A stretch of 64,000 nt of DNA, from positions 62,001-126,000 of IMG/VR virus record IMGVR_UViG_3300017788_000011. The stretch is one strand, 5' to 3'. The stretch comes from a virus. Position numbers and translations under genes: made by a program. Shown here one piece after another: positions 14,755 to 27,359 of this stretch (the first letter of the stretch is position 1; each line of letters starts with the position of its first letter). The notes under the pieces are model-generated. The model was not told where the DNA came from. It saw only the letters and a program-made list of their open reading frames with translations, and did not search any database.

Positions 14755-15189
14755 GTGTCGTGGCTTTATCAAAATCAAATAGTTGAAGAAATACCCGAAG
14801 GCTATATTGGCTTCGTTTATCTCGTCACCAATCTAAAAACCGGGCAAAAGTACATAGGCAAGAAACTTGCACAATTCAAACGTACTAAACCACCACTCAA
14901 AGGCAAAAAACTTAAACGTAGATCTGTAGTAGAAAGCGATTGGCGCGACTACTGGGGTTCTTCTGATAGGTTAAACGCAGACGTTCAACAATTAGGCCCG
15001 GAAAATTTTACCAGAGAAATACTGTATTACTGTACCAGCAAGGCAGAAATGAGTTATATAGAAGCTCGCGAACAGTTTGATCGTCGTGTACTGGAATCCG
15101 ATGAATACTACAACGGAATCATCAATTGTAGAATAGGCGGATCAGAAAAACTCAGAAAAGCCTTGGCAGAACATAGGCAAAAAACATAG
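14755..15189 (+). CDS. GIY-YIG endonuclease family protein
   Basis: A 144-residue protein, GTG start at 14755, 3 bases after the previous stop. The N-terminus has the GIY-YIG pattern in variant form: GFVYLVTN, then KYIGKK 10 residues later, a basic stretch (KGKKLKRRSVVESDWRDYWG) and a later acidic residue in YIEAREQF that fits the metal-binding Glu. Such single-domain proteins act in DNA cleavage (homing, Seg-type) or repair in T4-like phages; there is no recognisable DNA-binding tail, so the target is unknown. It is the last gene of the early block and directly borders the structured RNA region. Confidence 0.72.
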   Translation: MSWLYQNQIVEEIPEGYIGFVYLVTNLKTGQKYIGKKLAQFKRTKPPLKGKKLKRRSVVESDWRDYWGSSDRLNADVQQLGPENFTREILYYCTSKAEMSYIEAREQFDRRVLESDEYYNGIINCRIGGSEKLRKALAEHRQKT

Positions 15190-15460
15190 CAACGTGGTTT
15201 GGTCGGGGTAGCTCGACTCACCTTGAGGCAGCCGAGGTAAGGCTCGTAGCCGTCAGATACTGGTGTGTTGCACGGAAGAAGTTAACGTAAGGCTTCAAAA
15301 GATTGGGCTCTGTGAAAAAGATACAACCCATGGGTAAGTAGTTTCGCTTGATAGGGACTGTCTGCCTTCCGCGACTATTCGCGAATCTGGAGTAGGGGGT
15401 TTCAGGGTTGCCGCCTCCGCACGTAGCACATTTTATACAATATCGTTGAGTATTGTACAG
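15190..15460 (+). ncRNA. Candidate structured non-coding RNA of unknown family
   Basis: No gene fits here. By hand count 37 of 60 bases are G or C in both 15201-15260 and 15361-15420, clearly above the surroundings. Helices visible on the plus strand: GTCGGG/CTCGAC closing a GTAG loop (15202-15217), CGCGA/TCGCG with loop CTAT (15370-15383), and TACAATA/TATTGTA (15436-15457). Two possible long-range pairings are GAGGCAG (15225-15231) with CTGCCTT (15362-15368) and CAACCC (15324-15329) with GGGTTG (15405-15410). This nested arrangement suggests one folded RNA of about 230-270 nt. Strand is inferred from the flanking genes; ends are approximate. It matches no RNA family I know. Confidence 0.5.
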
Positions 15461-15518
15461 AATATGTTACATAATCTCCTTTATCAAGAGTGGCTGTTGT
15501 ACTCGGATAATGCCATTT

Positions 15519-15651
15519 ATTTGCCCGGAAACGGGCGAATTGTGACCATAATATCTGGATAATCTTAAAGTGCTTCGCACTAAAAATAAATCAAAGAAAA
15601 GAAAAAATGTGTTTGAGCGCAAGCGAAAACACAGACGAACGTAGTTCGTCT
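15519..15651 (+). other. String of four stem-loops, two with GNRA tetraloops
   Basis: Four hairpins stand in a row: 15519-15540 (9 bp, ATTTGCCCG/CGGGCGAAT with one G-U pair, GAAA loop); 15569-15581 (AGTGC/GCACT, loop TTC); 15609-15632 (GTGTTT/AAACAC, then facing GA and GA, then GC/GC closing a GCAA loop); and 15633-15651 (AGACGAAC/GTTCGTCT, loop GTA), which abuts the third. None is followed by a strong U-run, so these are not ordinary terminators. They end 5 bases before the late promoter at 15656, so they would be carried on the early transcript or on a separate RNA. Confidence 0.6.
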
Positions 15652-15655
15652 TCCG

Positions 15656-15663
15656 ATAAATAT
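15656..15663 (+). promoter_or_regulatory. T4-type late promoter for the internal head protein gene
   Basis: ATAAATAT in context CCGATAAATATCAT, 25 bases before the ATG at 15688. Its position inside the longer open frame beginning at 15607 is a reason to place the real start at 15688. Confidence 0.65.
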
Positions 15664-15687: not shown

Positions 15688-16662
15688 ATGCTACTTAGAG
15701 AATTATTCGAAGCACCAGGCGTAATATTAGGTCCTGATGGAAAACCTTTTGACACAGATAATCAAAAGCCTATATCAAAGCCTACTTCTGATCCCAAAGA
15801 ATTAGAAAAGCAGGTGTTAGAAAAAAACAAAACATCTGGTTTTGCCAAGGCAAAATCAATAGGTGGCACCATGGGTGCTGGCATGTCATGGCTCAGCAGA
15901 GCAGGGCTGGCTGTGTTATTTTACGATTATTGGACCACAGTCAGTGCCGCAGAAGAATCTCTAAAAAATAATGAAATCACTCAACAAAACTTCGATGCCA
16001 TACGTCAGTGGAAAATTGGCGAGCTAATATTAGCATTCTCTTCAAAATATCTTGTAAAGATTCCCGCCAATTTGTTTTTTAACTTACCAATAAAAACCGC
16101 AGGATTAGCAGTCAAAGGCAGTGCTGCCGTAATAGCCACAGCACCCAGTTTAATATCTGCAACTGCCACAGGCACTGGCAAAGGTCTGGGACTAATTGGG
16201 AAAATATTTGGAAAAACTCGCGTAGGTCGAGGACTACAAGTTGTAGGCAAGGGAGCAGAAAAAACCGGCGAATGGTTGGGCATAGGTGGTAATAAAATTA
16301 AGTTAGCCGGGGATCGAGCATTTACCATAGCACAGAGCGGGGATGTTCTTGTTGATTTTGCCTCTGAAAGTTTTAGAGCTTGGCTTACTATTGTGATACA
16401 AACTGATGCAGGTAAAAAGTTCTTCTCTGAAACATTGCCTGAAGTAATACAGTATCCAGGTAGATGGTATGAAATATTTGAAACTATTGCTGTTAATCTT
16501 TTTGACATATATGTCAAAGACAGTGTAGAACAAGATAAAAAAGAATCTGCGGCAAAACCAGAAGCAGAACCAGGAAAGCCAGCATCGCCGCCAGCCAAAG
16601 ATTCTGGAGTTACAAACTTGCCAGGTGTTCCTGGAGATTTTACTGGAACAATTAAGTTTTAA
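15688..16662 (+). CDS. Predicted internal head protein with capsid-targeting-like N-terminus
   Basis: A 324-residue protein starting MLLRELFEAPG. The frame is open from 15607, but the upstream part covers RNA stem-loops and the late promoter, so 15688 is preferred. The first nine residues resemble the T4 capsid-targeting peptide, a short N-terminal segment that ends in a gp21 cleavage site of the form (L/I)xE followed by A: here L-F-E then A. The middle has several hydrophobic segments (LSRAGLAVLFYDYW, LAVKGSAAVIATAPSLISAT) that could insert in a membrane, and the C-terminus is Lys/Pro/Ala-rich. A role as a core protein packaged in the head, perhaps injected with DNA, is inferred; no family is recognised. 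Confidence 0.55.
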   Translation: MLLRELFEAPGVILGPDGKPFDTDNQKPISKPTSDPKELEKQVLEKNKTSGFAKAKSIGGTMGAGMSWLSRAGLAVLFYDYWTTVSAAEESLKNNEITQQNFDAIRQWKIGELILAFSSKYLVKIPANLFFNLPIKTAGLAVKGSAAVIATAPSLISATATGTGKGLGLIGKIFGKTRVGRGLQVVGKGAEKTGEWLGIGGNKIKLAGDRAFTIAQSGDVLVDFASESFRAWLTIVIQTDAGKKFFSETLPEVIQYPGRWYEIFETIAVNLFDIYVKDSVEQDKKESAAKPEAEPGKPASPPAKDSGVTNLPGVPGDFTGTIKF

Positions 16663-26884: not shown

Positions 26885-26902
26885 TTTGTCTAATAATGAG
26901 CG

Positions 26903-26940
26903 CCGCAATGTCTGCGGACTTATGCAGTAACCCACTGCGT
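26903..26940 (+). promoter_or_regulatory. Two-hairpin 5' leader
   Basis: CCGCA/TGCGG (26903-26917, 5-base loop) and a 7-bp stem built on GCAGT/ACTGC with an AACCC loop (26922-26940) sit in the leader of the gene at 26973, ahead of its AAGGAG site. They may stabilise the message or regulate translation. Confidence 0.45.
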
Positions 26941-26972
26941 AGACCTAAAACGTCAACATAAGGAGAAAACAA

Positions 26973-27359
26973 ATGGGACGTCCATTGAGAAAAGATAGAT
27001 TAGGTACCGATGTCATCGGTACATTTGCCAGCAACACAGGTATTCGTGTAGAGTTTTATGATGCATCATTGAGAACAGACGGTGTTATTATCAAACAACG
27101 CGGTGCAAAAACATTTGTAGTTTGTCAAGTAGGCAACATTGGCACAACTACATCATATACTACCGCAGTATTAAAGAATGGTGCACCAAGTGCTGCCAAC
27201 GAAATGCGTTTGTTTGGGTACAATACTTCTAACTCAGGCGCAGTAGTTAATATTGCAAAAATTACCAAGCGTGTTGCTACAGATTTCAGCGGCAATCGTT
27301 ACACATGGAACTTAGAAAACGATTCATCTAACGACTACATTGTATTAACAGCAATCTAA
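26973..27359 (+). CDS. Small virion/collar protein of unknown function
   Basis: A 128-residue protein (MGRPLRKDRLGTDVIGTFAS) with alternating beta-type segments and the C-terminus YTWNLENDSSNDYIVLTAI. AAGGAG precedes the ATG. It has its own late promoter and a structured leader, suggesting high expression. It resembles small proteins that open fibre gene clusters of marine T4-like phages, but no function is known to me. Confidence 0.55.
   Translation: MGRPLRKDRLGTDVIGTFASNTGIRVEFYDASLRTDGVIIKQRGAKTFVVCQVGNIGTTTSYTTAVLKNGAPSAANEMRLFGYNTSNSGAVVNIAKITKRVATDFSGNRYTWNLENDSSNDYIVLTAI

Follow-up and report, generated by a model that had tools for sequence, protein, structure and literature searches.

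A predicted structured RNA of T4-like phages with paired direct repeats and a link to the Polynucleobacter-1 motif

Gene content of the locus

The window analyzed here is a stretch of 64,000 nucleotides that forms part of a 131,485-base IMG/VR virus record with T4-like genes, and the RNA described below lies on its + strand, as do the GIY-YIG gene and the late-promoter-like sequence on its two sides. Upstream of the region of interest are gp47- and gp46-like genes (Metallophos and AAA_23 by Pfam), a 77-amino-acid open reading frame and a GIY-YIG gene. The latter, at 14755-15189, encodes a SegE-type endonuclease (SegE_GIY-YIG, PF19835, 121.6 bits) and is context for the RNA that follows it, not a part of that RNA. 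The nearest named relatives of the GIY-YIG gene belong to the Methylophilales phages Melnitz (62%), which, among the relatives of this gene examined, lack the structured RNA. The 417 bases from 15190 to 15606 are free of open reading frames of 70 amino acids or more. An earlier note on this DNA had taken the region for the only long gene-free stretch, a description that has to be given up because 545-1419 qualifies too under the same criterion of no open reading frame of at least 70 amino acids. The note's count of two GC-rich 60-base blocks agrees with ours (60% at 15190-15249 and 62% at 15370-15429, versus 41.4% for the window). Likewise, the region does lie where it had been placed, between the gp47/gp46 operon with the GIY-YIG gene on one side and a gene with a late-promoter-like sequence on the other.

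That sequence, GATAAATA at 15655-15662, resembles a T4 late promoter by inspection and belongs to the context of the next gene; relatives carry TATAAATA-like motifs at the equivalent position. Two further hairpins, GUGUUUGAGCG...AAACAC and AGACGAAC...GUUCGUCU, occupy 15609-15651 just before the late promoter, a place that is conserved in relatives. The gene 3' of the RNA varies from phage to phage, and most versions begin with M[KR][IL]. We observed that the gene at 15688-16662 and its counterparts are strongly divergent even among close relatives while the short N-terminal motif M[KR][IL]... is kept. This suggests a hypervariable locus for an injected internal head protein, the M[KR][IL] start presumably resembling the N-terminal residues by which T4 internal proteins are targeted to the capsid. 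When the window was searched against Rfam with cmscan, the only match lay elsewhere and none fell on the RNA described here. The match is a freshwater-2 RNA (RF02980, 57.6 bits) at 26902-26975, which follows another late-promoter-like GATAAATA (about 26875) and lies in the 5' UTR of a probable late gene, with the start codon of a small open reading frame near 26973.

Extent and conserved fold of the RNA

The predicted folding energy of the region does not differ from that of dinucleotide shuffles (z = -0.04, with 90 of 200 shuffles as good), and no folding-energy signal relative to shuffles was observed on either strand. Thus, helices in this region are not to be trusted from the single sequence, and the fold given below was derived by comparison with relatives. 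A contig found by motif scan, L002, has an RNA identity to the window of 97.6% over 15253-15418 and 92.6% over 15472-15566; between the same two sequences, agreement is 94/144 third codon positions (65%) for the GIY-YIG gene, 68.3% for gp46 and 55.6% for the downstream gene. Further scans yielded about 160 more contigs, and each record that carries the RNA has one copy of it. Every close relative of the GIY-YIG gene for which the sequence suffices has a structured RNA directly 3', except in the Melnitz phages and a few displaced cases. BLASTN with three family members as queries found no match among 50,697 phage records, and a motif scan of genome contigs gave matches consistent with chance. 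Three contigs that were picked up by the short motif only (L003, L008 and L010) were rejected as relatives.

Identity to L002 and the homologues delimit a structured RNA that spans about 390 bases, from 15190 to 15581. We infer that its 5' end lies just after the stop codon of the GIY-YIG gene and its 3' end at the last hairpin, AGUGC-UUC-GCACU at 15569-15581, which is seen in the sequence, has an equivalent 3' of the second repeat (R2, below) in nearly all relatives and is likely to form the end of the RNA. The boundary at 15460 proposed earlier is too short: the conserved part continues to about 15581, and bases 15389-15392 pair with 15476-15479 in a helix that covaries. As the note had proposed, the region appears to hold a structured, functional RNA, a conclusion that the comparative evidence makes as good as shown, with homologues containing covarying pairs found in abundance. 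A coding frame does not account for the conservation, the spacing of conserved blocks shifting by non-multiples of three.

The relatives show three RNA architectures, termed type A (that of the window), type B and type C. For the covariation analysis, helices were named before double changes were counted, and shuffled and slid alignments served as controls. Among type A sequences (n=24), 98.7% of cells are paired, and 59 cells show double changes versus 15.9 +/- 3.4 in shuffled controls and at most 4 in slid controls. For types A and B together (n=43), 95.5% of cells are paired, 26 of 33 pairs are compensated, double-change cells number 282 versus 84.6 +/- 8.5 in shuffled controls, and the covariation score is 0.565 versus 0.193 shuffled and at most 0.11 slid; the combined alignment (A2) was fitted to a covariance model for the nested pairs, the pseudoknot lying outside that model.

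The 5' domain (15190-15332) has its type A form in the window, as judged from alignment and alifold with 32 relatives, and type B has Polynucleobacter-1 in its place. It contains local helices at 15233-15236/15243-15246 and 15278-15281/15293-15296, predicted from the same alignment, and a covarying UGGG/CCCA hairpin at 15304-15330 (stem 15304-15307/15327-15330) in which UA, GC, AU and CG pairs occur among 32 sequences. The stem-loop at 15333-15366 (15333-15336 and 15339-15345 with 15354-15360 and 15363-15366) is likewise defined by covariation, being 97.7% paired in type A and compensated at 10 of 11 pairs in types A and B. Local hairpins of the kind claimed earlier thus exist, and compensated changes back those at 15304-15330 and 15333-15366, but the helices differ from the ones that had been drawn. 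Neither of the two long-range helices proposed earlier stands. GAGGCAG has become GAAACAG in L002 while CTGCCTT is unchanged, and CTGCC pairs instead with GGTA at 15333. The partner of CAACCC is TGGG at 15304, and GGGTTG forms a pseudoknot with GCGAC at 15371.

This pseudoknot joins GCGAC at 15371-15375 to GUUGC at 15407-15411, the latter within the loop of a covarying core hairpin (GGGGG...CCUCC, 15395-15418, stem 15395-15399/15414-15418). The pseudoknot covaries, with 100% pairing and 4 of 5 pairs changed on both sides in type A, and is found in type B. Its first strand shares bases with an alternative hairpin at 15370-15383 (stem 15370-15373/15380-15383), which also covaries: 97.9% of cells are paired, double changes occur in 13 cells versus 5.0 in shuffled controls, and pairing in types A and B is 96.3%. 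One of its pairs is broken in the L212 group, and we therefore regard it as weaker than the pseudoknot. Since the two helices share one strand and both covary, it is possible that the core switches between a hairpin state and a pseudoknot state. The long-range helix noted above, GGAG/CUCC (15389-15392 with 15476-15479), has 4 of 4 pairs compensated and 100% pairing and closes off both the core and a variable AU-rich hairpin at 15423-15470. The latter is an inverted repeat, 80% complementary, that differs greatly in length among relatives or is reduced to a short stub.

Two direct repeats and the possible role of the RNA

Sequence comparison reveals two direct repeats in the 3' arm, R1 (ACUC-GGAUAAU, 15501-15511) and R2 (AUCU-GGAUAAU, 15553-15563), whose variable parts are the same. 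Between them lies a hairpin defined by covariation, UUUGCCCG-GAAA-CGGGCGAA at 15520-15539, which is 97.9% paired in type A and compensated at 5 of 8 pairs in types A and B. The consensus is A-CUC-XX-AURAU for R1 and A-UCU-XX-AURAU for R2. We observed that XXAURA is identical between R1 and R2 in 134 of 134 loci (chance for XX alone, 30%), as read by a parser that did not require identity but demanded one of a few endings in both repeats, leaving freedom mainly in XX and R. On the tree of the GIY-YIG gene, the XX dinucleotide has undergone at least 15 concerted changes, and in independent pairs on that tree the changes go the same way at the first base (6/6) and at R (9/9). Even divergent repeats still match each other, as with GUCGAA in L021 and GUGAA in L321. 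The difference between CUC in R1 and UCU in R2 is kept in nearly all relatives, indicating that the identity of the variable parts is not due to wholesale gene conversion.

There is no complementarity between R1 and R2, and the search of types A and B for a cis complement of their variable bases gave none that is consistent. An apparent complement at one offset in type A (86%) arises from a conserved U-rich strand and was set aside. A scan of the phage record for repeat sites returned only R1, R2 and one match at chance level. In L052, the first repeat unit 3' of the GIY-YIG gene is deleted and only R2 is left, which may be a natural deletion or one of assembly.

The neighbors of the RNA are less constant than the RNA itself. 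In L214 it follows a PDDEXK_15 nuclease (L214:335-853, - strand) that replaces the GIY-YIG gene, and in L250 (1030-1731), L308 and L317 the SegE-like gene is separated from the RNA by a second GIY-YIG gene, which precedes the RNA in several other contigs as well. This lack of dependence on one neighboring gene (L214, L250) favors an independent RNA, and the same two contigs weaken the idea that the RNA depends on the GIY-YIG nuclease as a guided nuclease. The neighboring nuclease and the downstream gene are both exchangeable while the RNA stays, which favors an RNA that acts by itself, and the differences in the next gene from phage to phage argue against control of one particular downstream gene.

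We favor, with moderate confidence, a stand-alone structured RNA that serves as a scaffold for two copies of one recognition site. Such an RNA would be transcribed together with the early recombination genes as the last part of their operon, would end at the 3' hairpin ahead of the next gene's late promoter, and would persist as a molecule of its own. The folded core would be the scaffold, and R1 and R2 would be two single-stranded copies of a site, both required to bind the same trans partner, presumably a host or phage RNA or RNA-binding protein. Competition between the hairpin and the pseudoknot could give the core two alternative states. Going further, we think it unlikely that a switchable pseudoknotted core with two sites that are forced to be identical while drifting between phages represents a new class of RNA machine. 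If it did, the mechanism would compare or use two equal sites, for example in guided processing or in the capture of two copies of a partner, and to our knowledge such a mechanism has been described for no RNA family.

Behind the stand-alone RNA we rank cis regulation first, then a ribozyme and then a DNA element. A promoter specific to the RNA was not recognized at the locus, so the RNA could be only a 3' UTR, and a cis-acting role also fits its unvarying location, with the early operon on one side and the late gene on the other. As a 3' UTR or intercistronic element, which we consider possible though somewhat improbable, it would protect the early recombination mRNA at its 3' end or determine whether transcription terminates or reads through from the early operon into the late region, with the core switch sensing a signal. 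Such a role would suit the place that the RNA keeps in nearly all relatives, after the early operon and ahead of a gene with a late promoter, the two covarying helices that compete for one strand, and the view of Weinberg et al. (2010, PMC2864571), who marked Polynucleobacter-1 as a candidate with a likely cis-regulatory role. It is harder to reconcile with the swapping of genes on both sides of the RNA, with the lack of a U-tract terminator on the + strand and with a fold far larger than the usual terminator, and it leaves the identity of R1 and R2 unexplained. That identity has a ready place in a self-processing ribozyme whose pseudoknotted core would cut or join at R1 and R2, kept identical for one guide. 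The core is indeed complex, pseudoknotted and strongly conserved, and two matched sites flank a hairpin and change in concert in every relative. Nevertheless, a ribozyme seems doubtful, as no guide complementary to the variable bases occurs at a constant place in type A or B, neither the window nor the relatives match an Rfam ribozyme or a group I or II intron, and no exon or interrupted gene is present.

We consider it very unlikely that the repeats act as DNA, recognized by a recombinase, a replication initiator or a homing endonuclease, with the RNA as a replication primer or by-product. Direct repeats in constant order, the adjoining SegE-like and PDDEXK nucleases and the loss of the first repeat unit in L052 would be in keeping with it; however, covariation maintains pairing at the RNA level, with G-U pairs among those kept on one strand, and a DNA-binding protein would not need the asymmetry between CUC in R1 and UCU in R2. 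Finally, GC islands do occur and the folding energy is not below that of shuffles, as might be expected of chance composition or a degenerate coding remnant, but we give this explanation almost no credence: the strong conservation, the covariation and the matches of one model across subtypes speak against it, and the covariation controls refute it. If the RNA is independent, these phages would have in it a major non-coding product. The always-identical repeats offer a testable handle on its function, as whatever reads one of them must read both.

Relation to known RNAs

At curated Rfam thresholds the window has no match to ribozymes, introns, RNase P or tmRNA, and ARAGORN reports no tRNA or tmRNA in it. 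RAGATH-12 (RF03149) has the string AUAGGnACUGUCUG in common with the window (16.7 bits, E 0.94), but this score is far from the cut-off of 75, and the string is not kept in other family members, so we take the likeness as chance. Like the T4 gene 60 translational bypass element, the RNA described here has short matched sites that flank a hairpin at a distance of about 50 nt from each other, with a variable triplet usually followed by UAA or UGA. It differs from the bypass element in having no conserved frame, in spacing changes that are not multiples of three and in the matched repeats of L021, which have no stop codon; frame and spacing rule out a coding or bypass reading. Cow-rumen-2 (RF02947) gives weak full-length matches to the core of two type B relatives (L033:3623-3722 and L317:3916-4010; 19.6 bits, E 0.37, and 14.7 bits, E 4.8). 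These matches are far below the cut-off of 66 bits and the window has none, so that a wider kinship is possible as a lead only.

The earlier statement that the RNA matches no known family holds insofar as the window is below every Rfam threshold, with no match to Polynucleobacter-1 (RF01718) in the window or the whole record at the threshold of 37 bits, but it fails in that the RNA is a divergent homologue of one that bears Polynucleobacter-1. Type B loci score 39.6-110.9 bits against RF01718 (cut-off 37), which makes up the 5' part of their RNA, downstream of the same GIY-YIG gene and ahead of the late gene, as in the window. L021 is intermediate, combining a Polynucleobacter-1 domain with a type A hairpin. 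A covariance model (R1) of the core and 3' arm, built from type A only (207 positions), matched 20 of 20 type B loci searched over its full length (1-207/207, E 2e-12 to 2e-19), indicating that types A and B are homologous and that RF01718 describes only the 5' part of one of them. The model also matches L308-L321, in which the RNA follows a different GIY-YIG gene. A search of 369 Gammaproteobacteria genomes with RF01718 gave no match, but the control gave no match either.

Type C RNAs (L020, L022, L030, L031, L047 and L072) lie 3' of a GIY-YIG gene, keep the paired repeats and have no Rfam match. The model gave no match to type C loci; homology of their core to that of types A and B is unproven, and type C may stand as an unregistered structured RNA of its own.

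Orphan phage RNAs are a kind already known. As far as we searched, the literature names Polynucleobacter-1 only in a 2010 list (PMC2864571), and the family link appears to be new. With it, an orphan motif of 141 nt becomes the 5' end of a longer phage RNA, one of about 390 nt. Many T4-like phage contigs carry this family at one fixed position, and it occurs in several architectures. Current annotation misses this family in the lineage of the window, and the databases know only one end of it in some relatives. Compared with the window, Polynucleobacter-1 covers only about 141 nt at the 5' side and includes neither the core nor the pseudoknot nor the arm with its two repeats, and the 5' domain of the window does not match it; what the two have in common is the genomic place in sister phages, followed by the core and the repeat arm. 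By sequence comparison, then, the RNA of the window is shown to be a divergent type A member of the family, in which the type B form has RF01718 as its 5' domain.
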